NCBI RefSeq assembly: GCF_900091575.1
Contig: NZ_FMCR01000001.1
Coordinates: forward strand, 558,001-622,000
Source of the DNA: Micromonospora saelicesensis
GTDB lineage: Bacteria > Actinomycetota > Actinomycetes > Mycobacteriales > Micromonosporaceae
Length of the DNA: 64,000 nt
Direction: 5' to 3'
The translations under genes and the position numbers were made by a program. Below the pieces are notes generated by a model, which had not been told where the DNA came from, made no database searches, and worked only from the letters and a program-made list of their open reading frames with translations. Shown piece by piece: positions 3,985 to 49,196 of this stretch (positions are counted from its first letter, which is position 1; every line of letters begins with the position of its first letter).

Positions 3985-4024
3985 CCTCCAAAGATGAATG
4001 TCGATAGAACGACGTCCTTGGAGG
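3985..4024 (+). promoter_or_regulatory. Hairpin that could sequester the ribosome binding site of the GH25 gene
   Basis: CCTCCAA (3985-3991) is an exact complement of TTGGAGG (4018-4024), which contains the Shine-Dalgarno sequence of the lysozyme gene at 4030. A second, inner helix ATGTCG/CGACGT (3998-4003 with 4010-4015, one G-U pair) closes a 6-nt loop. Together they form one elongated hairpin that would hide the GGAGG. Confidence 0.5.
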
Positions 4025-4029
4025 CACTC

Positions 4030-4782
4030 ATGGCCCGTACCCGATCATCGCTGCGCCGCGCGCTCGCGGCCGGCCTCACCGTCCTCGCCACCGCGGCGGC
4101 GGCCCTGGTCGCGACCGCCGGACCGGCGGCCGCCGCCACCACACCCGGTGTCGACGTCTCCCGCTACCAGGGCACCATCAACTGGACCAGCGTCCGCAAC
4201 GCGGGCATCCAGTTCGCCTTCATCAAGGCGACCGAGGGCACCAGCTACAAGGACCCGAACTTCAACGCCAACTACGTCAACTCGTACAACGCCGGGGTGA
4301 TCCGCGGGGCGTACCACTTCGCCCGGCCGAACATCTCCGCCGGCTCCACCCAGGCCAACTACCTGGCCTCCAACGGAGGCGCCTGGTCGGCGGACAGCCG
4401 CACCCTGCCGGCCGCACTGGACATCGAGGGCAACCCGTACGCAGGCGGCTACTGCTACGGGCTCAGCACGACCGGGATGCGCAACTGGGTGCAGGACTTC
4501 CTGAACACCTACCGGTCCCGCACCGGCCGGTACGCCGTCATCTACACCACCACGAGCTGGTGGAACCAGTGCACCGGCAGCTGGACCGGCCCCTGGGCGA
4601 ACCACCCGCTCTGGCTGGCCCGCTGGTCGAGCACGCCCGGCGCCCTGCCGGCCGGCGCGTCGGTGTGGAGCTTCTGGCAGTACACCAGCACCGGCGCGGT
4701 CTCCGGGATCAGCGGCAACGTGGACCGCAACTACTGGAACGGCGACCGGAGCCGCCTGATCGCGTTGGCCAACAACACCTGA
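4030..4782 (+). CDS. Secreted GH25 lysozyme (N-acetylmuramidase)
   Basis: The protein has 250 residues. A signal peptide (residues 1 to about 36, RTRSSLRR then a long Ala/Leu/Val stretch ending in AAA) precedes one GH25 domain that fills the rest. Catalytic-site motifs are visible: GVDVSRYQG at the domain start, FIKATEG, YHFARP and ALDIEGN, where the Asp and Glu of DIE are the expected acid/base pair. It would cut the beta-1,4 bond between MurNAc and GlcNAc outside the cell. No cell-wall binding repeat is present. I chose 4030 over upstream in-frame ATGs because of the GGAGG at 4020-4024 and the signal peptide. The possible RBS hairpin and Crp-like site lie just upstream. Confidence 0.92.
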   Translation: MARTRSSLRRALAAGLTVLATAAAALVATAGPAAAATTPGVDVSRYQGTINWTSVRNAGIQFAFIKATEGTSYKDPNFNANYVNSYNAGVIRGAYHFARPNISAGSTQANYLASNGGAWSADSRTLPAALDIEGNPYAGGYCYGLSTTGMRNWVQDFLNTYRSRTGRYAVIYTTTSWWNQCTGSWTGPWANHPLWLARWSSTPGALPAGASVWSFWQYTSTGAVSGISGNVDRNYWNGDRSRLIALANNT

Positions 4783-4791
4783 CCGGGCCGT

Positions 4792-4848
4792 TGGCGGCAG
4801 CGGGATCGACGGTCACCACACGGTCGACAATCGGTCCGGCTGCCGCCA
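4792..4848. terminator. Hairpin between convergent genes, probable bidirectional terminator
   Basis: TGGCGGCAGC (4792-4801) pairs with GCTGCCGCCA (4839-4848). The internal part contains a further GTCGAC-type self-complementary segment. It lies between the lysozyme (+) and the small membrane protein (-). Confidence 0.6.
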
Positions 4849-4864
4849 CACCACCGGGTACGGG

Positions 4865-5092
4865 TCAGACCCGCCGTCGGCTCAACACCGGCACCACAGC
4901 ATCCTCACTAGCCAGCGCGCCCCGGCGGGTCAACCGCCAGGCGGCAACGCCAAAGCCGGCAACGATCACGACGCCGAGCAGTGCGATGAGCACCGAAACC
5001 CCCGCGCTGACCAGCAGCAGGATCGCGTCGCCGAGCGCCACGAGCATCCACAGTGCCAGCCGGGGCCGAGTGTCCCTCCGTCGGTAACCCAT
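4865..5092 (-). CDS. Small two-helix membrane protein, unknown function
   Basis: The protein has 75 residues. A basic N-terminus (GYRRRDTRPR) precedes two hydrophobic helices (about residues 13-32 and 34-55), and the C-terminus is basic. Start 5092 is supported by AAGGAGG six bases upstream, better than the in-frame ATG at 5122. I do not recognise a family. The next gene upstream on the strand is the Ser/Thr kinase, which ends at 5158, but there is no evidence that the two are cotranscribed. Confidence 0.7.
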   Translation of the reverse strand: MGYRRRDTRPRLALWMLVALGDAILLLVSAGVSVLIALLGVVIVAGFGVAAWRLTRRGALASEDAVVPVLSRRRV

Positions 5093-5157
5093 GTCGTGCC
5101 TCCTTCCGTCGTCGAAGGTCAATTACCCACGACGACGCAAGGTCATGCGAATGAGTT

Positions 5158-7182
5158 TCAGTCCTGACGGTCGGGCACGAAACCCTTGGCGATCCGGTCG
5201 AAGTCCGGCAGCTTGGCCTGCCAGTCCTTGTCGGCGACCTCCCACCGCAGGGCGTAACCGCGGTCCTTGGCCGTCACGAACCCCCGGTTACGGACGTGGA
5301 TCCGGGTGTTGTCACGGGTCTCCAGCCACTCCCAGTCCGCGCAGGTCCGCCCGACATTGCAGCGCTCGATGCTGAGGTACTGATAGTTGATGACTTCGTT
5401 TTTGCGGTCGCCCTCGATGCTCTTCCAGTCGGCGTAGGCGTCCTTCTTCGGCGTGCTGGTCCACTGCACGAGCAACTCGCCCGGGCCATTGGACTGGTCG
5501 AAGACGACGGTGTTGCGACCCGCGTTGCGCCGTACCCAACCGTCGGGAATCGGCAGGGCGAAGCCCTCCGGGTCCCGGTGCAGCTTCCAGCCCGCCGGCA
5601 ACACGTTCGGGTCGACCGAGGGGGTGGCCGAGGCGGACGGACTCGGGGCACCGCTGGTGGGCGGCGGAGGCGCCGCAGCGGTGGTCGGTGCGGGCGCCGA
5701 GGTCGCGGCAGCACCGGTCGGGTTGGCCTGTGGGCTCTTGCCGTCGCCCTTGGTGAGCATCGGCACGACCACCACGAGGCCGATCAGCAGCAGGGCGACC
5801 ACGGCCCCGATCAGCAGGTTACGTCGGGTGTTGTTCGGCTTCGTGCCATCCGAGGGTGGCACCGCCGCGCGACCGGCCGGACTCACCGGCGGCATGAGCG
5901 ACGTCGGCGTGGTCGGCTTGCGCTGCTCCGGAGCCACCGGCGGACCGTCGACGACAGTCGGCTCGTCGTCGACGTTCGTCGTACCGTCGTCGCTCGTGTC
6001 GGGCGCGGCCGTGACCTTTGCGGTCGGCTCGGCCTCGGTCGGCTCGGCCTCGGACGGGCGGTCGATCGGGGCGGTCGGCTCGGCCGGCGCCTCTGCGGTC
6101 GACTCGCCCGACACCAGGGCGGTCGGGTCGGCGGCCTTGGTGTCGGAGGAGACGACGGCCGTCGGCGTGGCATCGGCGGCCGGAGTCGCGGCGGCAGCGG
6201 AGGTGGCGGCGGAGGTCGTCGGGGCGGCGGCCGGCGGCGGTGACACCGGCCGGTCGACACTCTCGGCCGGTCGCGGGGCCGGCACCACCGGCAGGCGCGG
6301 CTCGCGCGGACCGTTCGGCCCAGGCCGGCGTACGCCATCAAGCAGTGAGATCCCGCGCGACCGCTTGCCGGCGGCGCGGCGCAGCAAGCGCTCGGCCACC
6401 TCGGCGGTGATCCGCTCGTTCGGGTCCTTGCGCAACAGCCCGTTGAGGACGGCCTTGAGCGGACCGGCGTTCTTCGGCGGCGGAATCGGCTCGGTGGCCA
6501 GCGCGGCCAGGGTGCCGATCGCCGACGGCCGGGCGTACGGCGACTTGCCCTCGACCGCCGCGTAGAGCGTCGCGCCCAACGACCACAGGTCGGCCTCCGG
6601 ACCGGCCGTGCCGTCCCGAGCGCGCTCCGGCGAGATGTACGCGGGCGAGCCGAGCACCATGCCGGTGCGGGTCACATTGGGGTCACCGGGGATCGTGGCG
6701 AGACCGAAATCGGTCAGCACCACCCGGCCGTCGTCGCCGAGCAACACGTTGCCGGGCTTCACGTCGCGGTGCATGACACCCGCCTTGTGCGCGGCGCTGA
6801 GCGCACCCAGCACACCCAGGCCGATCTCCACCGTGCGGGCCACCGAGACCGGGCCGTCCTCGGCGAGAGTGTCCTGCAACGACTTCGACGCCACGTACTC
6901 CATGACGATCCACGGATCGCCGTCGGTGCGCAGCACGTCGAAGATGCGGACGACGTTGGCGTGGTTGAGCCGGGCGATGGCCCGCGCCTCCCGCAACGAG
7001 CGCTCGCGCATCTCGCGGCGCTCCTCATCGGTGAGACCAGGCGGCGGCACCAACTCCTTGATGGCGACGTCCCGATGCAGCACCTCGTCGCGCGCCTTCC
7101 ACACCCGGCCCATGCCGCCCTGGCCGAGCGGCGACAGGAGCCGGTATCGGTCAGCGACGAGTTGGGGAAGCGCGTTCGACAT
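5158..7182 (-). CDS. Transmembrane serine/threonine protein kinase with extracellular sensor-like domain
   Basis: The protein has 674 residues. The kinase domain spans about 10-270: glycine loop GQGGMG (20-25), catalytic Lys42 in VAIK, HRDVKPGN with Asp140, and DFG at 158-160. A Thr/Ala/Pro-rich juxtamembrane linker (about 280-450) leads to one membrane helix (about 454-476) and an extracellular domain of about 150 residues after a Pro/Ser linker. That domain has two Cys (RCNVGRTC) and replaces the PASTA repeats of PknB. It resembles the outer domain of the second kinase at 38.5 kb. TACCGT ends 8 bases before the ATG, with no Shine-Dalgarno sequence, so the mRNA is probably leaderless. It is divergent from accE, 90 bases away. 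Confidence 0.93.
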   Translation of the reverse strand: MSNALPQLVADRYRLLSPLGQGGMGRVWKARDEVLHRDVAIKELVPPPGLTDEERREMRERSLREARAIARLNHANVVRIFDVLRTDGDPWIVMEYVASKSLQDTLAEDGPVSVARTVEIGLGVLGALSAAHKAGVMHRDVKPGNVLLGDDGRVVLTDFGLATIPGDPNVTRTGMVLGSPAYISPERARDGTAGPEADLWSLGATLYAAVEGKSPYARPSAIGTLAALATEPIPPPKNAGPLKAVLNGLLRKDPNERITAEVAERLLRRAAGKRSRGISLLDGVRRPGPNGPREPRLPVVPAPRPAESVDRPVSPPPAAAPTTSAATSAAAATPAADATPTAVVSSDTKAADPTALVSGESTAEAPAEPTAPIDRPSEAEPTEAEPTAKVTAAPDTSDDGTTNVDDEPTVVDGPPVAPEQRKPTTPTSLMPPVSPAGRAAVPPSDGTKPNNTRRNLLIGAVVALLLIGLVVVVPMLTKGDGKSPQANPTGAAATSAPAPTTAAAPPPPTSGAPSPSASATPSVDPNVLPAGWKLHRDPEGFALPIPDGWVRRNAGRNTVVFDQSNGPGELLVQWTSTPKKDAYADWKSIEGDRKNEVINYQYLSIERCNVGRTCADWEWLETRDNTRIHVRNRGFVTAKDRGYALRWEVADKDWQAKLPDFDRIAKGFVPDRQD

Positions 7183-7272
7183 CGGTGAGACGGTACCCGG
7201 ACCGGCTGACGCTCACACCGCCGGCACGCCACTGTGCGCTTCGCGTTACTTCGCGCCGCGTACCCTGTCGGC

Positions 7273-7467
7273 ATGTCTGCCGAAGAGCCCCTGTTCCGGG
7301 TCGTCCGCGGCGTGCCCACCGCCGAGGAGTTGGCCGCTCTGGTGGGGGCGATCATCGTCCGAACCCGTCCGGCCGCCGCCCCCGTTCCGGCGACGATCTC
7401 CGCCTGGGCGCGCAGCGGTCGACCCGGCGGCTCCCGCGGGTGGCGCGCCGCCGGCCTGCCCCGCTAA
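7273..7467 (+). CDS. accE: Acyl-CoA carboxylase epsilon subunit
   Basis: The protein has 64 residues. The pattern LFRVVRGVPTAEELAALVGAI followed by ISAWARSGRP and a terminal WRAAGLPR is that of the small epsilon subunit which binds and activates actinobacterial acyl-CoA (acetyl/propionyl) carboxylase beta subunits. TACCCT lies 7-12 bases before the ATG, fitting a leaderless mRNA. In many actinobacteria the gene follows the beta (carboxyltransferase) gene and precedes maf. Here no beta gene is in the window, and three type VII-like genes separate accE from maf; the alpha subunit lies at 14.7 kb. Confidence 0.85.
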   Translation: MSAEEPLFRVVRGVPTAEELAALVGAIIVRTRPAAAPVPATISAWARSGRPGGSRGWRAAGLPR

Positions 7468-7557
7468 CCCGAGACCTGCCGCGCGGGGGCTGCCACGGTG
7501 GCGTTGAGCCGTTAACCTCACTCAGGGAAACGGTGCCGCTACGGGTAGGGAGGATCC

Positions 7558-8016
7558 ATGATCCCCGAAGAGGACCGGCCAGCACCCTGGCTACGCGGTT
7601 ACGGCGGCATCGAAGCCGACATCAGCCAGCTCAGAGAGTTCGCCGACCGGCTCGCCGCCGAGGTCGAGAGCAACTACGCGCCGCACCTGTCGTACATCGC
7701 CGAAGACATGTCCGCGAAGCTGCCCAACCCCTGCGACGCCTTCATCGAACTGGTCACCTTCCTGCACGCACACCACGAGACGCAGCAGGCCACCGCCGAC
7801 ATGGTGTACGCCGTCCGAGGCGCCACCGGCCACCTGGCCGCCGCCGCCGATCAGGTCGCCACCCACTACGCCGACAGCGACGCCTTCACCGCCGCCCGAG
7901 TGGTGGACGTGCAACGAGCCCTCGCCAACCCGGCCAGCGTCCTCCCCGGCGGCCCGACGCCAACCCTGACCGACCCGACCAGCCCCGACGCCGCAGGACC
8001 GGTGGTGCTGCCGTGA
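7558..8016 (+). CDS. Type VII secretion cassette protein 1, small helical protein of unknown function
   Basis: The protein has 152 residues and is mostly helical up to about residue 125 (heptad-like Ala/Leu pattern), followed by a Pro/Thr-rich C-terminus. It resembles small helical ESX-associated proteins, but no WXG motif is present. GGAGG lies six bases before ATG 7558. Its stop overlaps the start of the next gene (GTGA), and that gene in turn overlaps the mycosin gene, so the three form one translationally coupled operon. The role is inferred from this context only. Confidence 0.65.
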   Translation: MIPEEDRPAPWLRGYGGIEADISQLREFADRLAAEVESNYAPHLSYIAEDMSAKLPNPCDAFIELVTFLHAHHETQQATADMVYAVRGATGHLAAAADQVATHYADSDAFTAARVVDVQRALANPASVLPGGPTPTLTDPTSPDAAGPVVLP

Positions 8017-9398
8017 TCGAACGGGGCACCGGCCGCACCTCCGGCCTCACCGACTGGCACCTCATGGACGTCAACAGCATGTGGGCCTGCCTCCAGGACC
8101 ACGACACCGCCAACCACTGGAAGCAGGTCGCCGGCTGGCGCAAGGTTTGCGACCTGGCGCAAACCCACCTCGGCCGTCTTCAGCAGTACCGACGCGGACT
8201 CGCCGAGGCATGGCCCCCCGAAACAAGCGCCGCCTCCCGCACCTACCTCGCCGAACTCGACGAACTCATCGACCAGGTGCGGCGCACCCACGACGCCGCC
8301 GCCGCGAACTACACCGCGCTGTCCGCCGCAACCCAGGCCATCGGCACCACCCGCGCCGCACTCCGCAAGATCTACGAGGAGTACGCGACCAAGTTCCAAC
8401 AGAAGCAGGCGTACGAGTCGATGGTCGCCGACCCGAAAGCGGTGATGGGCAACCGGGCCACTACGCCGCCTGTTGCTGATGGGGAGCTGGAACGGCTCAA
8501 CGTGCAGGCCCGATCCATGATGTTCAACCTGAGCGGTGAACTCCAACAAGCCCAAGCAACCCTCCAAAAACCACCCCCTCGGCCCGCTCCTCGCGTCGAC
8601 GAAGAAGGGGCTGCCACGACAGCAGCCACAGCACCCATTATTCCCCCTATTGTTCCGGTTCCCATTCGATCAACCGCGCGAGTTCCGTCATCCGGCGGCC
8701 CTTCCGCTAACTCACCCGCCAGCCGCATGCCGATTACAGGGGGAGTTGGTCCTGTTCTTGGCGGGGCAACAGCAATGCCATTCCCCACAGTTCAAGACTT
8801 GCCACGCAGCCAACAGGTAGGGCCCGTCAACCAGCCACCTGGTATGGGACAGACCCCTACCCTCGGGGGCATTCCTAACGCGTCAAAGATCCTCCGACCG
8901 CCAACTGAGCAGCGCGGGTCGATGGGGCTGCCATTACCCAAGGAGCCGAGAACCAACGGGGCTAATTCGCCTCCAGCCCCTCGGGCAATGCCACCAAGTG
9001 GCTTGATCGGTGGAGCACCCGGCCTTGGTATTGGTCAACCCAACAACGGCCCGGCCGCGCCGCGCCGGGTCAATCCGATTGGAGGTGTCATCGGCGGTGG
9101 TAGCGCTGGGACAGCGCCAACGGGAGGGGCAGGATCGCGACCAAGCGCTCCGCGCGCTTCAGGGAGCGTCGGCGGCATGTCGCCCATTGGCGGCGCCCCG
9201 GCCACCGGACCCCATTGGCACGCCGGTACCTCACCTACCCGTCTTGGCCGGTGGGTTCACGGCGGCGGTGACGGCGAGTCCGACCGATGGGACCCGGACC
9301 ATCCGTGGAGGACCGAGCAAGGAGTCGCACCTGTGGTACTCCCTCCCGACGAGGACGGCCCAATCGACCCGGGCCCCGCTCTCGGCCTTCCTCGGTGA
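8013..9398 (+). CDS. WXG100/PPE-like type VII secretion substrate with long Pro/Gly-rich tail
   Basis: The protein has 461 residues. Residues about 1-185 are helical and carry a WxG-like turn (AEAWPPETSAAS, near 65-75) between two long helices, the layout of WXG100/PPE helical hairpins. From about residue 190 the chain is low-complexity, rich in Pro, Gly, Ser and Thr, with repeated GG(V/A)xG segments, and ends in an acidic WDPDHPWR-containing tail. The GTG at 8013 overlaps the previous stop by four bases (GTGA). A secreted or cell-surface protein handled by the linked mycosin is the likely role, by analogy. The tail-coding part is less G+C rich (about 60% in sampled lines) than the flanks. 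Confidence 0.65.
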   Translation: MIERGTGRTSGLTDWHLMDVNSMWACLQDHDTANHWKQVAGWRKVCDLAQTHLGRLQQYRRGLAEAWPPETSAASRTYLAELDELIDQVRRTHDAAAANYTALSAATQAIGTTRAALRKIYEEYATKFQQKQAYESMVADPKAVMGNRATTPPVADGELERLNVQARSMMFNLSGELQQAQATLQKPPPRPAPRVDEEGAATTAATAPIIPPIVPVPIRSTARVPSSGGPSANSPASRMPITGGVGPVLGGATAMPFPTVQDLPRSQQVGPVNQPPGMGQTPTLGGIPNASKILRPPTEQRGSMGLPLPKEPRTNGANSPPAPRAMPPSGLIGGAPGLGIGQPNNGPAAPRRVNPIGGVIGGGSAGTAPTGGAGSRPSAPRASGSVGGMSPIGGAPATGPHWHAGTSPTRLGRWVHGGGDGESDRWDPDHPWRTEQGVAPVVLPPDEDGPIDPGPALGLPR

Positions 9399-10528
9399 GG
9401 TATTACCTCGCTTTCCCACTCCTGTTGGCGTTGAGCCTTCCGGGAGCAATTCCAGAGCCCGCATTCCAAGCACACGTTAATCACGCCCAGACCGAGCAAT
9501 GGCATCTTAACTTTCTAAAAGTCACCGACGCGCATAAGACGAGCCAAGGCGATGGGGTAGTTGTTGCACTTCCCGACAGTGGCGTAGATCAACATCCGGA
9601 CTTAAAGGGCAACCTGCTTCCCGGCAAGGACGTAATCGCTGGAGGCGGTGGTGACGGGTTGACCGACGAAGACGGCCACGGCACGGGGATGGCAGGTCTA
9701 ATCGCAGCCCACGGCGACGAAAGTTCAGGTGCGCTCGGCATCGCACCAAAAGCCAAAATTCTGCCAATATTCTGTTCACCACCGGGCAAGGCAGGCGATT
9801 CGGAATCGTTGGCAGCGGCAATAGAGTATGCAATCAGCGCCGGCGCTGATGTTATCAGCATTTCAATCGCCGGCGGGGTTAGCGCTCGGCTACAACAGGC
9901 AGTCAGAATGGCCTTGCAAGCTGACATCATAGTTGTTGCCGCCGCCGGCAATGCGCCTTGGACGCAAATGGTGGGTTATCCCGCACGCTACCCGGAAGTT
10001 GTCGCTGTGGGTGGAATCGGCCGAGACGGAAAGCGTACCGCCGTCTCGGTCACTGGGCCGGAGATTGACGTGGTTGCGCCCGCGGTCGACATCTACAGCA
10101 CCAGCATCGACGGCAAGTACCGCAAAGGCACCGGCACCTCTGACGCGACGGCGATCGTGGCGGGCGCGGCTGCATTGATCAGGTCCAAGTACCCATACCT
10201 GCCGGCTCGGGAGGTGGCGCACCGGCTCACGGCCACCGCCGTCGACAAGGGACCCCCTGGGCGTGACGACGAGTACGGCTATGGAGTGATCGATCTTGTG
10301 GCGGCACTGACGGCAGACGTACCGCCGCTGGGGTTTGAATCGGTGAGCGCTCCGGCCGGTGCTGGCCCGACCACGACGGCTGGCGCTCAGTCCGATGACG
10401 CAAGCGATAGTGCGACCGCTCGCGGCCTGGCCACTCTCGGGGTGCTCGTGGCTGCCGGGGTCGGGTGGGCCGTAATAGCACGGCGACGCCGGCGTGGCGA
10501 TGATCCGCCGCCCAGAATCAGTCGCTGA
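9395..10528 (+). CDS. Type VII secretion-associated subtilisin-like serine protease (mycosin)
   Basis: The protein has 377 residues. A signal sequence (RYYLAFPLLLALSLPGAIPEP) is followed by an S8 domain with the triad visible: Asp in ALPDSGVD, His in DGHGTGMAG, Ser in GTGTSDATA, plus the oxyanion Asn in AAAGN. A C-terminal membrane helix (GLATLGVLVAAGVGWAVIA) ending in RRRRRG anchors it with the catalytic domain outside. This is the mycosin architecture. Start GTG 9395 overlaps the previous stop (GTGA). The first half of the gene is only 50-58% G+C in the lines I counted, against about 70% around it, which suggests acquisition. No EccB, C, D or E core gene is in the window. Confidence 0.85.
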   Translation: MRYYLAFPLLLALSLPGAIPEPAFQAHVNHAQTEQWHLNFLKVTDAHKTSQGDGVVVALPDSGVDQHPDLKGNLLPGKDVIAGGGGDGLTDEDGHGTGMAGLIAAHGDESSGALGIAPKAKILPIFCSPPGKAGDSESLAAAIEYAISAGADVISISIAGGVSARLQQAVRMALQADIIVVAAAGNAPWTQMVGYPARYPEVVAVGGIGRDGKRTAVSVTGPEIDVVAPAVDIYSTSIDGKYRKGTGTSDATAIVAGAAALIRSKYPYLPAREVAHRLTATAVDKGPPGRDDEYGYGVIDLVAALTADVPPLGFESVSAPAGAGPTTTAGAQSDDASDSATARGLATLGVLVAAGVGWAVIARRRRRGDDPPPRISR

Positions 10529-10545
10529 TCGATCAACGAAGCGGT

Positions 10546-10620
10546 GATCCACTCGGCTTTCAGGAAACTGCGGTGTCCGGGGCGAGGGGATACCGCGTTT
10601 TCCTGAAAGTCGAGTGGATC
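10546..10620. repeat. Long intergenic palindrome (member of a dispersed set)
   Basis: The 22-base arms at 10546-10567 and 10599-10620 match with a single G-U mismatch (left arm begins GATCCACTCGGCTTTC). An inner helix GCGGTGTCC/GGATACCGC continues nearly to the loop. It sits between the mycosin and maf, and could end mycosin transcription. Confidence 0.85.
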
Positions 10621-10708
10621 AAGGCCGCCCGACCACCCGGCGGCCGGACAGGTGGGTGCTGGGCGGGGTGTCGGTCTTGGTGGAGGGTTGGGCGGTAACG
10701 TCGGGCTG

Positions 10709-11377
10709 GTGTCTGAGACTTTGCCGCTTCGCCTCGTGCTCGCATCGGCGAGCCCTGCCCGTCGTAAGTTGCTCCAGGCTGCCGGCGTCGAGCCGGAGGT
10801 GCTGGTCAGTGGGGTGGACGAGTCCCTGGTGGTGACCGAGCGGGCCGAGGAGCTGTGCCTGGAATTGGCTCGTCTGAAGGCGCAGGCGGTGTTGACCCGA
10901 CTGAACCCGAACGCCGATCAGCGGACGTTGGTAATCGGCTGCGACTCGGTGCTCGCCTTCGACGGGGAGATCCTCGGCAAGCCGGCGGATGCGGCTGACG
11001 CGACCCGGCGGTGGCTGCGGATGCGGGGACGCAGCGGCGTTCTACACAGCGGGCACTGCCTGGTCGACGTTACTGCCGGCCGGCGGGCGGAGGCGGTCGC
11101 GTCGACCACGGTCCACTTCGCCGACATCAGTGACGACGAGATCGCCGCGTACGTGGCCACGGGTGAGCCGCTGGCGGTGGCCGGTGCGTTCACGATCGAC
11201 GGGCTGGGTGGGCCGTTCGTGGAACGGATCGAGGGTGACCCGGGGACGGTGGTCGGGCTGTCGATGCCGCTGCTGCGCCGGCTCCTCGCCGAGCTGGATC
11301 TGCGGATCACCGACCTGTGGACGAAGGTCGCGCCGGGCGGCCAAACAGTCGAGCCGCTCGGTAACGTCCGGTCATGA
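10709..11377 (+). CDS. maf: Maf-family nucleoside triphosphate pyrophosphatase
   Basis: The protein has 222 residues. The family signature LVLASASPARRKLL opens the protein, GVDES follows, and IGCDSVLAFDGEILGKP and TIDGLGGPFVERIEGDPGTVVGL are the conserved active-site blocks. It hydrolyses non-canonical or excess NTPs to NMP and is linked to septum formation in bacteria. I chose GTG 10709: TAACGT lies 8-13 bases upstream without a Shine-Dalgarno sequence (leaderless), and the N-terminus aligns with the family. It overlaps the methyltransferase start by four bases (ATGA), so the two are coupled. Confidence 0.92.
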   Translation: MSETLPLRLVLASASPARRKLLQAAGVEPEVLVSGVDESLVVTERAEELCLELARLKAQAVLTRLNPNADQRTLVIGCDSVLAFDGEILGKPADAADATRRWLRMRGRSGVLHSGHCLVDVTAGRRAEAVASTTVHFADISDDEIAAYVATGEPLAVAGAFTIDGLGGPFVERIEGDPGTVVGLSMPLLRRLLAELDLRITDLWTKVAPGGQTVEPLGNVRS

Positions 11378-12027
11378 CCACCAAGTCGATCCCGCTCACC
11401 AACGAGCTGCACGCCTATCTGGTCGCACACGGCTCCCCGCCGGACGAGATCATCCGTGACCTGGCCGAGGAGACCCGGTCGGTGCTGCCCGAGCACGCCA
11501 CCATGCAGGTGGCTCCGGAGCAGGCCGCGTTCCTGACGTTCCTCACCCGGCTGCTCGACGTGCGGCAGGCCGTCGAGGTTGGCACGTTCACCGGGCTCTC
11601 GTCGCTGGCGATCGCCCGTGGGTTGCCCGAGGGTGGGCGACTGACCTGCTTCGACATCTCCGAGGAGTTCACCGGCATCGCCCGGCGCTACTGGGCGCGG
11701 GCCGGCGTGCAGGATCTGATCGACCTGCGCATTGGCCCGGCCGCGGACGGGCTGCGGGAGTTGCCGCACGAGCGGCACCTGGACTTCGCGTTCATCGACG
11801 CGGACAAGACCGGCTACCCGATCTACTGGGCGGAGCTGGTGCCCCGGATGCGTCCGGGTGGGGTGATCGCCGTCGACAACGTGTTGCGTGGCGGGCGGGT
11901 CATCGCCCCGCAGGACGCTGGTGACCGGGCCATCGCCGCGTTCAACGACGAGGTCCTCGCGGACGTGCGGGTGGACCCGGTGATGCTGCCGATCGCGGAC
12001 GGCCTCACCCTCGCCCGGGTCCGCTGA
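11374..12027 (+). CDS. Class I SAM-dependent O-methyltransferase (caffeoyl-CoA/COMT type)
   Basis: The protein has 217 residues, full family length. The SAM-binding block EVGTFTGLSSLAIARGLP is at about 69-86, the metal/substrate motif FIDADKTGYPIYW at about 135-147, and VIAVDNVLRGGRV at about 165-177. Family members methylate catechol-type hydroxyls with a divalent metal; the natural substrate here is unknown. It is translationally coupled to maf and followed by a strong hairpin terminator. Confidence 0.88.
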   Translation: MTTKSIPLTNELHAYLVAHGSPPDEIIRDLAEETRSVLPEHATMQVAPEQAAFLTFLTRLLDVRQAVEVGTFTGLSSLAIARGLPEGGRLTCFDISEEFTGIARRYWARAGVQDLIDLRIGPAADGLRELPHERHLDFAFIDADKTGYPIYWAELVPRMRPGGVIAVDNVLRGGRVIAPQDAGDRAIAAFNDEVLADVRVDPVMLPIADGLTLARVR

Positions 12028-12069
12028 CCGACCGACAATCGCCGACCGTCGGCAACCGCCGAATACGAC

Positions 12070-12101
12070 ATTGGGGTGTCCCCACCAGGGGACACCCCAA
12101 T
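12070..12101. terminator. Perfect 14-bp hairpin between convergent genes
   Basis: ATTGGGGTGTCCCC and its exact complement flank the 4-nt loop ACCA. It lies between the methyltransferase (+) and the ABC permease (-), so it probably stops transcription from both sides. There is no U-run, as is usual in actinobacteria. Confidence 0.88.
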
Positions 12102-12125
12102 ATCAAGTAACAGCGAAGGCCGGCG

Positions 12126-12881
12126 TCAGCGGACGCTGCGGGCGAACTGGCGGGCGGCCCAGTAGACGCCCAGCGCGGCGAGGACCGCGGTGATGCTGAG
12201 GCCCTGCCAGACCTTGTCGCTGCCCAGGTCACCGGCGAACAGTGCCCGGGTGCCGTCGACCGCCCAGGAGAACGGGTTCCAGTTGGCGATGCCCTGCAAC
12301 CAGCCGGGTGCGAAGGTCAGCGGCAGCAGGATGCCGGAGAGCAGCAGCACCGGCTGCGCCACGGTGTTCATTAGCGGGGCCAGTGCGTCCTCGCTCTTGA
12401 CCTTGAGGGCGACGCCGTAGGAGACGGCCGAGGTCATGAGGGCGATCAGGGCGAGCATCAGGTACGCCAGAAGCAGGTCCCCGATGAACACCCGCAGGTC
12501 GAAGATGAGCGCCAGGAGCGTGATGATGACCGCCTGCACCATGAGCGAGACCACGTCGCGCAGCGAGCGGCCGAGCAGCAGGGCGAGCCGGCTGATCGGG
12601 GTGACCCGGGAGCGTTCGATGACGCCGGCTCGCAGCTCGGCGATCAGGCCGAAGCCCTGGAAGAGGCCACCGAAGATGGCCAGCAGCACCAGCAGGCCCG
12701 GTACGAAGATCTTGTAGGCGGCGGCCTGGGTGGGCGCGTTCAGTGCGGGCTTGAGCAGCGGGGCGAAGAGCAGCAGGTACATGACCGGCTGGAACACGCC
12801 GACGAAGACCCAGACCGGGTTGCGTAGCAGGAGTTGGGTCTGGCGCTGGAAGATCAGCCACGTGTCACGGGCGAATTTCAT
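12126..12881 (-). CDS. ABC-2 type exporter permease (DrrB-like)
   Basis: The protein has 251 residues with six membrane segments and the ABC-2 pattern: a cytoplasmic N-terminus (FARDTWLIFQRQTQLLLRNP), AIFGGLFQGFGLIAELRAGVIERSRVTPISR in the coupling region, then GILLPLTFAPGWLQGIANWNPFSWAVDGTRALF. It would pair with the ATPase 18 bases upstream in a DrrAB-type efflux pump, probably for a hydrophobic drug or lipid. The operon is controlled by the PadR gene upstream, judging from shared operators. Confidence 0.9.
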   Translation of the reverse strand: MKFARDTWLIFQRQTQLLLRNPVWVFVGVFQPVMYLLLFAPLLKPALNAPTQAAAYKIFVPGLLVLLAIFGGLFQGFGLIAELRAGVIERSRVTPISRLALLLGRSLRDVVSLMVQAVIITLLALIFDLRVFIGDLLLAYLMLALIALMTSAVSYGVALKVKSEDALAPLMNTVAQPVLLLSGILLPLTFAPGWLQGIANWNPFSWAVDGTRALFAGDLGSDKVWQGLSITAVLAALGVYWAARQFARSVR

Positions 12882-12899
12882 GGGAGTCGTCTCCGGTGG

Positions 12900-13859
12900 T
12901 CAGGACTCGCGCAGCGAGCGGCCGGTCTTGGTGAGGAAGACGTCGTCCAGGCTGGGTCGGTGCAGCTCGATCGAGCGCAGCTCCAGCCCGGCGTGGTCGA
13001 GTCGGCGCAGCACCTGCGGAATCGCGGTGGCACCCTCGTCGACGTAGAGGCGCAGGCCGCCCTCGTCGACCGTCTCCAGCTTGTTGACGTACGGCTCGCC
13101 GTCGAGCGTCTGGGCGGCCTGCGGGGTGGCGGCCAGGTCGAGACCGACCAGCACCACGTCGCCGGAGATCTCCCGCTTGAGCTCGGTCGGCGTGCCCTCG
13201 GCAACCACCTCGCCGTTGTCCATGATCGCGATCCGGTCGCAGAGCGCGTCGGCCTCGTCCAGGTAGTGCGTGGTGATGAAGACGGTCATCCCGTCGGCGC
13301 GGAGCCGACGGATCTCGTCCCACATGTGGGCGCGGCTCTGCGGGTCGAGGCCGGTGGTCGGCTCGTCCAGGAAGACGATCTTCGGCTCGTGGATGATGCC
13401 GAGGGCGATCTCCACCCGGCGACGCTGGCCGCCGGAGTAGGTCTTGCACGTGCGGTCGGCGTACTCGGTGAGCTGGAAGGCGTCCAGGGCACGGGCGGCA
13501 CGCCGCTGCGCGTCGGCCTTGCTGATGCCGTACATCCGGGCGTGCAGCACCAGCTCTTCGCGGGCGGTGGACTCGTCCCAGGTGCTGCCGCCCTGCGGGA
13601 CGTACCCGATGCGGCGGCGCACCTCGGCCGGGTCCTTGCGCAGGTCGGCACCCGCGATGGTGGCCTCGCCGCCGTCCGGCTCGATCAGCGTGGCGAGCAT
13701 CCGCAGCGTGGTGGTCTTGCCGGCGCCGTTCGGGCCGAGGAAGCCGAAGATCTCGCCCTTGGCAACGTCAAGGTCGACGCCCCGCACGGCGTCCACCGTC
13801 TTCGTCTCTCGACCCGCGCGGGAGCGGAACGACTTCCGCAGCCCCCTGGTCTCGATCAT
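12900..13859 (-). CDS. ABC exporter ATP-binding protein (DrrA-like)
   Basis: The protein has 319 residues. Walker A GPNGAGKTT is near residue 40, the signature YSGGQRRR near 140, Walker B IVFLDEPTTGLDP near 160, and the H-loop TTHYLDEAD near 197. The C-terminal extension of about 80 residues is the DrrA-type regulatory domain. It energises the downstream permease. Its promoter region (13860-13985) has TTGACT and TAGCCT separated by 18 bases on the minus strand, with the first hexamer inside the proposed PadR operator. Confidence 0.92.
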   Translation of the reverse strand: MIETRGLRKSFRSRAGRETKTVDAVRGVDLDVAKGEIFGFLGPNGAGKTTTLRMLATLIEPDGGEATIAGADLRKDPAEVRRRIGYVPQGGSTWDESTAREELVLHARMYGISKADAQRRAARALDAFQLTEYADRTCKTYSGGQRRRVEIALGIIHEPKIVFLDEPTTGLDPQSRAHMWDEIRRLRADGMTVFITTHYLDEADALCDRIAIMDNGEVVAEGTPTELKREISGDVVLVGLDLAATPQAAQTLDGEPYVNKLETVDEGGLRLYVDEGATAIPQVLRRLDHAGLELRSIELHRPSLDDVFLTKTGRSLRES

Positions 13860-13965
13860 TTCTGCTCCTGGTCGTTCGGGCCGGTCGGGCCGGCCGTCGG
13901 GTGGGACGGCGCCGGACGGCGCACTCCCCCGCTGTGCCGCCAGCAGGCTAACGCGATATAGCTTT

Positions 13966-13985
13966 TTTAGTCAACGTTGATTATT
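13966..13985. promoter_or_regulatory. PadR operator, site 1 (drrAB-like promoter)
   Basis: TTTAGTCAACGTTGATTATT has a dyad TTAGTCAA-CG-TTGATTAT. It covers the -35-like TTGACT of the ABC operon and overlaps the last codons of the PadR gene. The same sequence, with changes only in the spacer and one arm, is found at 14619-14638. Confidence 0.65.
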
Positions 13986-14607
13986 CCGCGTTGGTGTCGA
14001 GCGGCTCCACGCCGTCCCGCCACCCCGACCAACCCTGCGCTTCATCCAGCTCAGCAGGCAGGTACGACACTCCGGAATCGATCCGCTCGGCGATCCGCTC
14101 GCACCAGGTCATCTCCGCCTCCGCCCGCGCCGACCACAGCTCGAACATCCAGCCGACGTGCGCCGGCTTGCGGTTGCGCACCCAGTCCGACTCCAGCGAG
14201 GCGCGCATGGACTCGACGCCGGCGCGCAGCAGGTTGGCCCGGTTACGCAGGGCGGCTGCCGCCTCGGCGCGCGGCATGGCCGGCAGAAAGGAGAAGGCCG
14301 CCACGAACGGGTCGGCGGGCTCGCTGATGGTCCACCAGGAGTTGCGCAGCAGCGTCTCGAACTCGTCCTCCCCCTTGACCGTCACCTCGTACGTGGTCCG
14401 CGCCGGACGGGCGCCCACCTGCTCGGTCGCGACGGCGCGGAGCAGCCCTTCCTCGGTGAGTTTGCGCAGGGCGTGATAGATCGACCCGGGCTGTATGTTC
14501 GCCCACTTGTCGGCGCTCCAGCTCAGCAGCTCACGGCGCACGTCGTAGCCGTGCACGGGCTGCATCCACCGCACCAGACCGAGAATCATCATCCGAGTCG
14601 AAGACAC
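13981..14607 (-). CDS. PadR-family transcriptional repressor of the adjacent ABC exporter
   Basis: About 208 residues from the GTG at 14607. The winged-helix domain is at about 6-85 (MILGLVRWMQPVHGYDVRREL, then PGSIYHALRKLTEEGLL, the PadR recognition helix), and a C-terminal helical dimerisation region follows to the end. TACGCT lies 7-12 bases before the GTG, suggesting a leaderless mRNA; ATG codons at 14592 and 14589 are alternatives. It lies directly upstream of the ABC genes on the same strand, separated by 121 bases, and operator-like dyads occur at both promoters. Autoregulation and ligand-released control of efflux are inferred. Confidence 0.88.
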   Translation of the reverse strand: MSSTRMMILGLVRWMQPVHGYDVRRELLSWSADKWANIQPGSIYHALRKLTEEGLLRAVATEQVGARPARTTYEVTVKGEDEFETLLRNSWWTISEPADPFVAAFSFLPAMPRAEAAAALRNRANLLRAGVESMRASLESDWVRNRKPAHVGWMFELWSARAEAEMTWCERIAERIDSGVSYLPAELDEAQGWSGWRDGVEPLDTNAE

Positions 14608-14618
14608 CCGATAAGCGT

Positions 14619-14638
14619 AATAGCCAAGTTTGACTAAA
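14619..14638. promoter_or_regulatory. PadR operator, site 2 (autoregulatory)
   Basis: Read on the minus strand this is TTTAGTCAAACTTGGCTATT. It matches site 1 at 15 of 20 positions and sits between the -35 and -10 positions of the leaderless padR promoter, where a bound repressor would block polymerase. Confidence 0.65.
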
Positions 14639-14742
14639 CCGTGGCGGGTGCAGTGCGGCATCCCACACTGAGCGATCGTTAGGGCCGCCGAGGGCGGCCG
14701 ATACACTCCCCGTCAGTAACCTGCCCGGGAGGAGCCACGAAG

Positions 14743-16494
14743 GTGCGCAAGGTACTTATCGCCAACCGCGGCGAAATCGCCGTCCGGGTGATCCGCGCGT
14801 GCCGCGACGCCGGCCTGGGCAGCGTCGCCGTGTACGCGGACTCCGACCGCGACGCCCTGCACGCCACCCTCGCGGACGAGGCGTACGCGCTCGGCGGGGA
14901 CAGCGCTACCGAGACCTACCTGCGCATCGACAAGCTGCTCGACGTCGCCGCTCGGGCCGGCGCCGACGCCGTACACCCGGGTTACGGCTTCCTCAGCGAG
15001 AACGCCGACTTCGCCCAGGCGGTCATCGACGCCAGGCTGACCTGGATCGGCCCCACCCCGCAGGCGATCCGCGACCTGGGCGACAAGGTCACCGCCCGGC
15101 ACATCGCCCAGCGGGCCGGCGCACCGCTGGTCCCCGGCACCCCGGACCCGGTGGCCAGCCCGGACGAGGTGATGGCGTTCGCCGTCGATCACGGCCTGCC
15201 GGTAGCCATCAAGGCCGCCTTCGGTGGCGGCGGGCGCGGCCTCAAGGTCGCCCGCACCATGGAGGAGATCCCCCAGCTGTTCGAGTCGGCCACCCGGGAG
15301 GCGGTCGCGGCGTTCGGTCGGGGCGAGTGCTTCGTCGAGCGGTACCTCGACCAGCCCCGGCACGTCGAGGCGCAGGTCCTCGCCGACCAGCACGGCAACG
15401 TGATCGTGGTGGGCACCCGGGACTGCTCGTTGCAGCGACGTCACCAGAAGCTCGTCGAGGAGGCGCCCGCGCCGTTCCTCACCGACGCCCAGCGCGCGCA
15501 GATTCACGAGAGCGCCAAGGCCATCTGCCGCGAGGCCGGCTACCACGGCGCCGGCACTGTGGAATACCTGGTCGGCGTCGACGGCACCATCTCCTTCCTG
15601 GAGGTCAACACCCGGCTTCAGGTCGAGCACCCGGTCACCGAGGAGACCGCCGGCATCGACCTGGTCCGCGAGCAGTTCCGGATCGCCGACGGCGAGAAGC
15701 TGCGGATCACCGAGGACCCGACGCCGCGCGGGCACGCGATCGAGTTCCGGATCAACGGCGAGGACCCGGGCCGCAACTTCCTGCCCGCCCCCGGCACTGT
15801 CACCGCGCTGCGCCTGCCCAGCGGGCCGGGTGTGCGGGTCGACACCGGCATCTCGGCCGGCGACGTGATCGGCGGCAACTTCGACTCACTGCTCGCCAAG
15901 GTGATCATCACGGGTGAGACGCGGACCGAGGCGCTGGAGCGCGCCCGCCGTGCGCTGGACGAGATGGTCCTCGACGGGATGGCCACCGCGCTGCCGTTCC
16001 ACCGGCTCGTCGTGCGGGACGAGGCGTTCACCGCCGAGCCGTTCACAGTGCACACCCGGTGGATCGAGACCGAGTTCCACAACACCGTGCCGCCGTTCAC
16101 CGCCGCCGCCGGCGCCGCCGAAGCGCCGGCCGAGCGCGACACCGTCGTGGTCGAGGTGGGCGGCAAGCGCCTCGAGGTCAGCCTCCCCGCCGGCTTCGGC
16201 GGGAGTACGACCACCGCGGCACCCGCCGCCCGCAAGCCGACCCGGCGTGGCGGCGGCGCCAAGGCCGGTGCTCCGGTCGGCGGCGACGCGCTCACCTCGC
16301 CGATGCAGGGCACCATCGTCAAGATCGCGGTGGCGGACGGGGACACCGTGGCCGAGGGCGACCTGGTCGTGGTGTTGGAGGCGATGAAGATGGAGCAACC
16401 GCTGCACGCGCACAAGGCGGGTACGGTCAGCGGTCTCAGCGCCGAGGTCGGCGCCGTGATCACCGCTGGCGCCTCCATCTGCACCATCGCCTGA
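14743..16494 (+). CDS. Acyl-CoA (acetyl/propionyl-CoA) carboxylase alpha subunit: biotin carboxylase plus BCCP
   Basis: The protein has 583 residues. The biotin carboxylase part (1 to about 450) shows [20 protein letters not shown], the ATP-grasp glycine loop [13 protein letters not shown], and [16 protein letters not shown] linker of about 60 residues leads to the biotinyl domain with EAMKMEQ (biotin Lys549). It carboxylates biotin and hands it to a beta subunit to make malonyl- or methylmalonyl-CoA. GTG 14743 has GGGAGGAG upstream. The beta subunit is not in the window; the epsilon subunit is at 7.3 kb. Confidence 0.95.
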
Positions 16495-47967: not shown

Positions 47968-48873
47968 ATGGCCTACGCCGTGCACTTCGCCGCCACCATG
48001 CTGGCCTGCTATCTGACCGCCCAGGTGTTGGCCCGTTCCACCTGGACGTGGCGCAGCCCCCGGGTGGCGATCGTCTGCTGGCAGGCCGTCGGGCTGGCGT
48101 TGGGCCTCTCGGCGATGGGCCTGCCGATGGCGCTCGGGTTGAGCGCGTACGACCGGTCGACCGGTAGCGCGCTGCTCGCCCTGGCCAACGACCTCGCCCA
48201 CGGCGCCCTGCCGATCGGGGTGGGCACGTTCCACCTGGCCGGCGTCGGCGTGGGCTTCGGCATCGGAGCGGTGCTGGTCACGACGACCGTGCGCAGCATC
48301 CACGGCACCGTACGCGCCCAGCGTCGCCACCGTGACCTGCTCTCCCTGGTCGCCCGGAACGACCCGGCCGCGCCGGGCGCGCTGGTGCTGGATCATCCGA
48401 GCGCCGCCGCGTACTGCCTGCCGGGGGTGAAGCCGCAGGTCGTGGTCAGCGCCGGCACACTGAGCCTGCTGGACCGGGCCGAGCTGGCCGCGGTTCTCAG
48501 CCACGAGCGTGCGCACGCCCACGAGCGGCACGACCTGGTGCTGCTCCCGTTCACCGCGCTGTGCCGGGCGCTGCCGTGGTTCGGCTGGGTGCGCGACGCG
48601 CACGAGCGGGTCGCCCTGCTGGTCGAGATGCGCGCCGACGACAAGGCCCGTGAGTTGCACGCCGAGGCCCCGCTGGCGGGTGCGCTGCGCCGCTTCGCCG
48701 CCGCCGGGCACCGGATCACCCCGGCCGGCGCGCTCGGCATGGGCGACCGGGATCTCGACGTACGGGTGCAGCGGCTGCTGGTCAGCGACCGGCCGCCCCG
48801 GGTTCTCGGCGCCACCGCCCTCGCGGTCGCCACCACCCTTGTCGCCCTCCCGGTCACCCTCTTCCTGAGCTGA
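47968..48873 (+). CDS. M56-family (BlaR1/MecR1-type) membrane metalloprotease, without sensor domain
   Basis: The protein has 301 residues. Helices at the start, the zinc motif SHERAHAHERHD (HExxH near 169) and helices after it form the M56 protease core. BlaR1 has an extra C-terminal penicillin-binding sensor of about 250 residues which is missing here; the protein ends shortly after its last helix. So it responds to some other signal or to a partner. It is translated from ATG 47968, 10 bases after blaI, and probably relieves BlaI repression. Confidence 0.88.
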   Translation: MAYAVHFAATMLACYLTAQVLARSTWTWRSPRVAIVCWQAVGLALGLSAMGLPMALGLSAYDRSTGSALLALANDLAHGALPIGVGTFHLAGVGVGFGIGAVLVTTTVRSIHGTVRAQRRHRDLLSLVARNDPAAPGALVLDHPSAAAYCLPGVKPQVVVSAGTLSLLDRAELAAVLSHERAHAHERHDLVLLPFTALCRALPWFGWVRDAHERVALLVEMRADDKARELHAEAPLAGALRRFAAAGHRITPAGALGMGDRDLDVRVQRLLVSDRPPRVLGATALAVATTLVALPVTLFLS

Positions 48874-49002
48874 CGCCCACAAGGCACCACTGAGCCCACG
48901 CGGCAGAACCACGCGGAGGGCGCTGCCCCGCGCCACGCCCGCGCACCTCGCGCGCCAGCCCTTGCACGTCTGCGCCCGCACTGCGCCCGGCACCCCCTCG
49001 CA

Positions 49003-49076
49003 AGATCGCGCTCGATCCAGGATCGAGGGGCATCCCGGGGCCGCGAGACCACTACATCCAGGATCGAGCGCGATCT
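49003..49076. repeat. Intergenic palindrome with AGATCGCG ends (dispersed set)
   Basis: AGATCGCGCTCGATCC (49003-49018) and its exact complement (49061-49076) form 16-bp arms; four further pairs follow after one mismatch. The left arm overlaps a smaller palindrome CTCGATCC-A-GGATCGAG, so two alternative hairpins are possible. Confidence 0.87.
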
Positions 49077-49084
49077 CCCCCATG

Positions 49085-49101
49085 TACTACGTGGCGTAGT
49101 A
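49085..49101. promoter_or_regulatory. BlaI-type operator 1 upstream of cydA
   Basis: TACTACG-TGG-CGTAGTA is a perfect 7-bp dyad with a 3-nt spacer. It is the best site in the window and 95 bases before the cydA start. The same 7-3-7 layout is seen at blaI. Confidence 0.65.
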
Positions 49102-49108
49102 GAGTTTC

Positions 49109-49124
49109 CTACGACAGGGCGTAG
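49109..49124. promoter_or_regulatory. BlaI-type operator 2 upstream of cydA
   Basis: CTACG-ACAGGG-CGTAG, with 5-bp arms and a 6-nt spacer, lies eight bases downstream of operator 1 and is followed by another TAG-containing half site. Confidence 0.5.
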
Positions 49125-49145
49125 TAGTTCTTACCAGTAGGCAAA

Positions 49146-49165
49146 CTACGTGTAGGGTGGCTACG
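49146..49165. promoter_or_regulatory. BlaI-type half sites 3 and cydA promoter -10
   Basis: CTAC-GT-GTAG (49146-49155) overlaps the possible -10 TAGGGT, and a third CTACG half site follows at 49161-49165. GTAG at 49137-49140 adds a further half site just upstream. Confidence 0.45.
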
Positions 49166-49196
49166 ACAAGGCAGCCAACGCTATGGAGGGCTGGTC

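Follow-up and report, generated by a model that had tools for sequence, protein, structure and literature searches.

Three overlapping genes, here called A, B and M, lie between accE and maf in a stretch of 64,000 nucleotides from Micromonospora saelicesensis (contig NZ_FMCR01000001.1, positions 558,001 to 622,000; this whole stretch is referred to as the window, and all positions given below are its own unless another contig is named). They encode a small helical protein, a protein with a PPE-like helical domain followed by a Pro/Gly tail, and a mycosin. The tail of B and the first two thirds of M together form one haplotype of low G+C at third codon positions (GC3), and this haplotype is swapped whole between Micromonospora species. 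The cassette that holds it appears, from its distribution, to be vertically inherited and long resident at accE–maf through much of the Micromonosporaceae; the part that travels horizontally is the inner block and not the cassette itself.

A hypervariable block within a conserved cassette

The block extends from about codon 181 of B to about codon 220–260 of the mycosin (8553–10174, + strand) and was delimited by the profile of synonymous difference (pS), by tree conflict and by the drop in identity. When the window was compared with 12 relatives whose A proteins are 89–99% identical to its own, pS was 0.05–0.30 in accE, A, B codons 1–140 and maf, and 0.19–0.48 in the end of M. In the B tail and M codons 1–170, 11 of these relatives differ with pS values of 0.59–0.90, and the twelfth, L039, carries a related block type (0.35–0.55). 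Close species therefore show a synonymous difference of ∼0.75 inside the block versus 0.05–0.3 outside it. Among the 61 closest of the 4186 species pairs, 50 differ in the tail and the protease half, 8 are similar in both and 3 are intermediate; no pair, with the thresholds applied, differs in one half while being similar in the other.

Averaged over the 50 discordant pairs, pS is 0.29 in B codons 141–160 and 0.18 in codons 161–180, climbs to 0.57 and then 0.76 in the two bins that follow, remains on a plateau of 0.65–0.82, and then descends from 0.58 to 0.28 over M codons 201–280. The left edge of the block is thus sharp and falls at the end of the PPE-like domain, and the right edge is graded, spanning the catalytic Ser249. 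In the 64-kb comparison with a complete genome (G002), mean identity is 0.94 outside the block (155/155 bins) and 0.59–0.65 in the three block bins; the block bins lie at 0.59–0.62 in G029 and at 0.80–0.86 in G074, which carries a related type. Clustering at protein-distance cuts of 0.35, 0.30, 0.25 and 0.20 gave 75, 80, 82 and 85 clusters, that is, roughly 75–85 block types among 92 genomes. No big allele group common to many species was found, the clusters at the 0.25 cut having three members at most. The 92-genome set omits L041 (where the contig stops before maf), L114 (no maf in the piece), and L082 and L086 (mycosin unreadable as one gene).

The block is also apparent in base composition. 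In 300-bp bins, G+C is 0.67–0.74 in A and the first part of B, 0.60–0.65 over 8350–9099, 0.69–0.72 over 8950–9399 (the tail end), 0.57–0.62 over 9250–10149, and 0.64–0.79 in the remaining bins of 4000–15000. Low G+C begins within B and stops within M, and is sharpest at third codon positions: over the 92 genomes, mean GC3 is 0.91 in A, 0.92 in B codons 1–140 and 0.90 in maf, but it falls to 0.59 in the tail of B and to 0.58 in M codons 1–220, and is 0.78 over the final 75 codons of M. Flank GC3 minus block GC3 is above zero in 92/92 genus loci and in 37/37 tested loci of other genera. A preliminary description of this DNA had given low G+C to the cassette as a whole and taken it as a mark of import. 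The dip is present, but it is a property of the inner block and does not affect the whole cassette; nor does it mark an import, the same local GC3 dip being found in nearly all relatives examined.

Variation of this kind is no general rule, because control mycosins and a paralogous B gene behave ordinarily. Across a common set of six relatives (five in one case), the four further mycosins that this genome encodes show an overall pS of 0.07–0.25, and of 0.00–0.36 in separate fifths, which rules out that mycosins are fast in general. A paralogous cassette on contig C1 (L236, C1:80000–96000, 7670–11028), with a GC3 of 0.82–0.92, encodes A2 (146 amino acids), B2 (509 amino acids, with a Gly-rich tail) and M2 (490 amino acids). 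From codon 55–61 to codon 509, B2 is 89–98% identical in five of the six relatives, L155 having fragments only, and this rules out that disordered tails always diverge. Mycosins and Gly-rich tails do not generally vary like the block. Silent cassettes for antigenic variation were also considered and rejected: B matches only itself in its own genome at E up to 1.

Exchange of the block as one haplotype

Trees were built with FastTree for the 92 genomes, counting the splits supported at 0.8 or more. The tail of B and the protease half have 31 splits in common (of 55 and 57), and the left flank (A and B codons 1–140) and right flank (the M end and maf) have 28 in common (of 57 and 55); a block part and a flank have 3–5. 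Conflicting splits number 45–53 of 55–57 between a block part and a single flank, compared with 15–17 within the block or between the flanks. The nearest row is the same for tail and protease half in 42/92 cases and for the two flanks in 45/92, versus 13–15/92 for block and flank. In a matrix of 12 segments, B190–290 has 14–18 splits in common with every other block segment, as far as M150–220, and 3 with the adjacent B90–180, while M260–377 has 11–14 in common with A and B1–180 and 1–3 with block segments. Both block edges are visible in this matrix, and there is no decay within the block. In addition, a partial Mantel test of the tail on the protease half, given the flanks, returned an r of 0.46, a value reached by 0/2000 permutations.

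Individual topologies were examined with the approximately unbiased (AU) test on 22 rows. For the window and L042, which are nearly identical in their flanks, the block data reject a grouping (p-AU 3.4e-05), and the flank data reject the pair L042 and L049 (p 4e-4), which has a block support of 98. The swap is an allelic replacement whose crossovers lie in the conserved outer parts of B and M.

Set against 36 loci from other genera, the alleles of the genus fall into a single clade (support 0.951), so that the pool of block alleles is genus-wide and old. For one locus, L071, the nearest row by raw distance belongs to another genus. Visible import of the block from other genera was considered as a source, and the single genus clade speaks against it; the pool thus appears to lack a visible supply from outside the genus.

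Residence of the cassette between accE and maf

The three genes and their GTGA junctions, as first described, are real: A occupies 7558–8016, B 8013–9398 and M 9395–10528, all on the + strand. A 4-base overlap is found at the A/B junction in 94/96 genus loci and at the B/M junction in 79/96. The best named match of the B domain of the window is in M. noduli (98%), and the nearest named relatives by this domain are Micromonospora species. A match to A was found in 99 of 101 genus genomes, including its own, with E < 1e-40 in 96 of them, and the order accE–A–B–M holds in 96/96 genus loci (95 fetched and the window). The maf gene follows in 94/96, with a match at only 41% identity in L099; the exceptions are L041, where the contig stops, and L114.

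Beyond the genus, the B domain was matched at E up to 1e-10 in 194 of 250 family genomes, from 32 of 44 genera. At 40 loci from 11 other Micromonosporaceae genera, hand-chosen among the stronger B domain matches, accE, A, B and maf are present in 40/40 and a mycosin in 39, with a spacing between M and maf of 1.0–2.2 kb in 7/40. B is not readable as a single frame in L203, L204 and L214, and 36/39 of the other-genus loci entered the clade test and 37/39 the GC3 test. In the survey at order level, 24/200 genomes match, from two genera, both Micromonosporaceae. The preliminary description had proposed a recent acquisition between accE and maf, and had named the same genes standing at this place in most relatives, with similar G+C, as the finding that would speak against it. 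This is what the comparison returned.

Five genus genomes have no intact A. G083 (L133, 1224–2092) has an A–B run-on gene and no mycosin match; G043, G062 and G015 have little beyond a B-tail-like remnant ahead of maf; and in G016 maf stands at the contig start. Four of the five (G083, G043, G062 and G015) retain remnants at the site and have thus lost the intact gene. These shrunken cassettes (L133, L322, L323 and L324) occur in genomes of 5.2–5.9 Mb; that of the window measures 7.1 Mb.

Predicted products of the cassette

Gene A encodes 152 amino acids and is a candidate PE-like partner. A putative YxxxD export signal (Y104-x-x-x-D108; 7867–7881, + strand) directly follows a long predicted helix, 58–103, and its Y and D/E are kept in 91/92 genus rows and in 39/39 rows of other genera. 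The YxxxD motif is the general export signal of type VII secretion systems (T7SS) on PE-type partners. The AlphaFold2 model of A is of low confidence (pLDDT 66), and in the Pfam and NCBIfam scans neither A nor B matched any family above chance.

Gene B (461 amino acids) begins with a predicted helical domain, residues 14–190 (8052–8582, + strand), of which the AlphaFold2 model (residues 1–190) has a pLDDT of 87. In a structural comparison with this model, the six top rows are all PPE proteins (Z 12.5–13.4 over 160–168 residues), and the first non-PPE row follows at Z 10.7. The EspB PE–PPE structure scores Z 9.6, level with several unrelated helical proteins. B is named PPE-like by fold only, because helical bundles reach high Z easily and the best E-value of the model in Foldseek is just 9.2e-03. 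The domain sequence, compared with solved structures, gave two rows at E 0.6–1, which we regard as chance. Members of the PPE sequence family carry Pro-Pro-Glu near the start, and B begins MIERG. B is therefore taken as PPE-like by predicted fold and is placed outside the PPE sequence family. A and B are most likely a secreted PE/PPE-like pair. Within the tail, an alignment of 27 alleles identified two conserved motifs on the + strand, the Gly-rich RRVNPIGGVIGGGSAGTAPTGGAGSRP (9063–9143) and a C-terminal motif, WDPDHPW...DPGPALGLPR (9288–9395).

Gene M encodes an S8 protease of 377 amino acids (PF00082, 179 bits). The mycosin identity proposed earlier was borne out, with 287.6 bits for TIGR03921 against a curated cut-off of 278.75. 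The family is narrowly reached: for the mycosin of this locus in seven close genomes, three score above the cut-off and four below. For M, PADLOC returned general subtilase and weak IetS matches only. The catalytic D61, H95 and S249 are each kept in 92/92 genus rows and the oxyanion N186 in 91/92, and since these residues are kept we infer a working protease that would meet the exported B tail. Hydrophobic stretches, judged by eye, lie at the N-terminus and the C-terminus; mycosins are described as extracellular and tail-anchored, with a signal peptide, in the part of PMC10924467 consulted. Positions lining the cleft of M, mapped through a subtilisin alignment, are more variable (mean entropy 2.01 for 12 positions versus 1.27 for the 159 others in M 50–220, one-sided p 0.017), which would fit a shifting specificity.

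The 64-kb window holds no match to EccB, EccC or EccD, and M is thus not encoded with these core genes. The genome has two matches over cut-off for each of EccC, EccD and EccB, all off the window. One ESX locus (C2:876–894.5 kb) comprises a WXG100 pair, EccB, EccC, EccD, a mycosin and an EccE match below cut-off (71 versus 108); a second, on C8, has EccC, EccD and a mycosin, and an additional EccB lies on C7. The orphan position of M does not exclude it from the mycosin family, because other mycosins of the genome that score over cut-off, in L235 and L236, are orphan too. The one in L235 (C2:1024000–1040000, 7445–9827) is convergent with two WXG100 genes, 3 of 15 picked open reading frames having been scanned, and that stretch contains none of the EccB, EccC or EccD matches of the genome. 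Together, the PPE-like fold, the type VII signal, the mycosin and the ESX genes off the window support the earlier suggestion of a substrate-plus-protease module that uses a core machine encoded elsewhere.

A proposed mechanism and its rivals

In the explanation that we favour, A and B would leave the cell as a dimer by way of an ESX machine whose genes lie elsewhere. The mycosin, anchored in the membrane, would then bind or cut the B tail outside the membrane, as MycP1 does EspB, and the specificities of tail and protease would be kept matched by residing in one block. The diversity would be held by selection for difference, most likely in self/non-self recognition at the cell surface, for which the nearest published precedent is the mid locus of M. 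smegmatis. Taken as a whole, an inherited pair with its own mycosin, a block that is exchanged, and diversity selected for self-recognition form an account to which we give an even chance. More tentatively, the locus may act like a mating type, as a self-identity locus of the Micromonosporaceae in which the mycosin of each haplotype would accept no tail but its own, neighbouring cells would sense the processed tail or its absence, and rare types would gain, so that dozens of ancient types persist across a genus and are passed on whole; this is a conjecture, possible at best.

A number of points weigh against this explanation or parts of it. As regards exchange, the tail and the protease half conflict in 16–17 splits, near the 15 between the flanks, and raw pairwise distances of the block against A and the B domain are still moderately correlated (0.34–0.43). 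The flank data also mildly reject the window with L042 (p 0.047), and they do not reject the block-supported pairs of the window with L039 (p 0.22), L051 with L054 (0.07) and L044 with L045 (0.0501). The flank order of the closest species is thus unsettled, and it is the block data, together with L042/L049, that carry the contrast. Since the tail and the protease half are adjacent, linkage alone explains their common history; it does not prove functional co-evolution, and matched specificity is a hypothesis. Non-block 400-base bins below 0.80 identity also occur, in 4/155 for G002, 2/154 aligned for G074 and 10/139 aligned for G029. The diversity figures are between species, with one genome per species, and in other genera the contrast of block and flank is weaker, the flanks there being more diverged (among the pairs listed, with B N-terminal pS < 0.6). 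As regards the products, Foldseek gave just two poor matches for the low-confidence model of A, which leaves its PE fold unconfirmed, and a Pfam scan of B at E up to 1 gave no PPE match. The result for the cleft is a modest one, used a general list of cleft residues, and concerns loops that are variable anyway. At one locus of another genus, L226, accE, A, B and maf are present and the piece gave no match to a mycosin. Exchange of the block is a result of the analysis; that A and B are exported, that the tail is cut and that cells recognise it are inferences. In the part of PMC5082899 consulted, the protease activity of MycP1 is reported to be dispensable for secretion. We note separately that, as L226 indicates, B may exist without its own protease alongside.

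The main rival explanation retains the same substrate and protease, with diversity driven by enemies (phages, predators or other microbes) for which the exposed tail or protease serves as a binding site. Surface antigens are typically encoded by loci that are low in G+C, hypervariable and exchanged; the block, moreover, encodes regions that should lie outside the membrane, and there are many types per genus. Nevertheless, the block also holds the catalytic half of the protease, with its Asp, His and Ser kept in every row, and the history of this half tracks that of the substrate tail; we consider enemy-driven diversity possible, with a chance well short of even. Rather unlikely, in our judgement, is a neutral recombination hotspot or relaxed low-GC3 stretch, with weak constraint on a disordered tail and no selection for diversity. 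Disordered tails do tolerate change, and the GC3 of 0.58–0.59 in the block against 0.90–0.92 in A, B codons 1–140 and maf would agree with relaxation. However, exchange only spreads alleles and leaves unexplained a saturated synonymous divergence beside nearly identical neighbour genes. The block edges, moreover, fall at a domain end and at a catalytic motif, the B tail retains conserved motifs, and the Gly-rich tail of the paralogous cassette is not variable.

We give little credence to a polymorphic toxin in which the tail carries the toxin and the mycosin frees it. A mycosin-like protease is recorded near one T7SS toxin family, according to the portion of PMC3482391 consulted, but scans of B against Pfam, NCBIfam and PADLOC, reaching to E = 1, turned up no toxin family (PHROGs not searched), its tail is Pro/Gly-rich, and the cassette contains no separate immunity gene, maf being next. 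Hypermutation limited to the block is very improbable: it would account for saturated synonymous sites and shifted GC3, yet it would preserve a branching order like that of the flanks, and instead 45–53 of 55–57 splits conflict when a block part is set against a single flank, compared with 15–17 when the two flanks, or the two block parts, are set against each other. Least tenable is the recent acquisition of the cassette with donor-derived low G+C. The low G+C itself is all that speaks for it, against the presence of A and B in 96/96 genus loci and in 40/40 of those chosen from other genera, a matching dip in GC3 at every locus tested for it, and a GC3 of 0.91–0.92 in A and B codons 1–140.

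Other features of the window

On the left, the cassette is adjoined by accE, the gene of the acyl-CoA carboxylase epsilon subunit (7273–7467, + strand; PF13822 (ACC_epsilon), 45.6 bits, cut-off 25), and on the right by maf (10709–11377, + strand; TIGR00172, 167 bits, cut-off 117). The gap between M and maf, outside the block, contains a near-perfect 77-base palindrome (10545–10621, no strand assigned) with a predicted RNA fold of −61.8 kcal/mol (z −9.6). It has 40 similar matches across the genome, many being both strands of one place, and is a dispersed element resembling a repetitive extragenic palindrome or a miniature inverted-repeat transposable element (REP/MITE-like). A second patch divergent from G002 lies at 48401–49200 (identity 0.61–0.74), at the end of a membrane metalloprotease-like gene beside a BlaI-like regulator (names assigned by eye), and positions 1–400, at the window start, have an identity of 0.67–0.69 to all three compared relatives.

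Relation to known systems

EspB of mycobacterial ESX-1 holds PE and PPE in one chain. With its mycosin, MycP1, it resembles the present case as a PPE-fold substrate with a long tail; here, in contrast, there are two genes, an orphan site without core genes, and a hypervariable tail and protease half. MycP1 processes EspB, the sole known mycosin substrate as of 2016, as stated in the part of PMC5082899 consulted. The mid genes of M. smegmatis (Msmeg0069–0071, in esx1) likewise form a polymorphic T7SS block with conserved flanks and a Pro-rich protein, and the N-terminal two thirds of the last gene are variable; Msmeg0070 is reported to set self-identity (PMC9040860, in the sections consulted). 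On the other hand, Msmeg0070 is said there to be unlike any other protein, the mid genes are part of esx1, and the term mycP is absent from the main text (PMC9040860); mid is likened to A, B and M by description. High polymorphism bounded by conserved edges, which distinguishes mid, is found for our block between species only.

In Streptomyces pratensis, Sfla_1620/Sfla_1621 pair a mycosin with a neighbour most similar to ESX-1 Ala/Pro-rich proteins, and both are listed among the core genes that diverge highly within the species; they stand, however, in an operon with bldB, away from accE–maf, and the part of PMC4239341 consulted mentions neither a block structure nor co-transfer. Divergence of this kind is thus found between strains of one species in a different family. 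For Micromonospora lupini, fifteen T7SS genes are listed, grouped into three clusters and including several mycP, but the portion of PMC4182475 consulted says nothing of the accE–maf cassette or of its variability. Among the literature matches listed, titles and abstract openings gave no account of the locus, of its variability, or of co-transfer of a mycosin and a substrate tail. The parts are thus known (a PPE-like fold, a mycosin and a type VII signal), and the arrangement and its evolutionary mode are undescribed in the literature searched.

Mycosin substrates are almost unknown, and the locus supplies natural matched and mismatched pairs of tail and protease for direct tests of specificity. 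It also hints that soil bacteria known for antibiotics have a recognition or arms-race system that has gone unnoticed, and the role in self-identity reported for a mycobacterial type VII locus would then reach a second family, with a different architecture.

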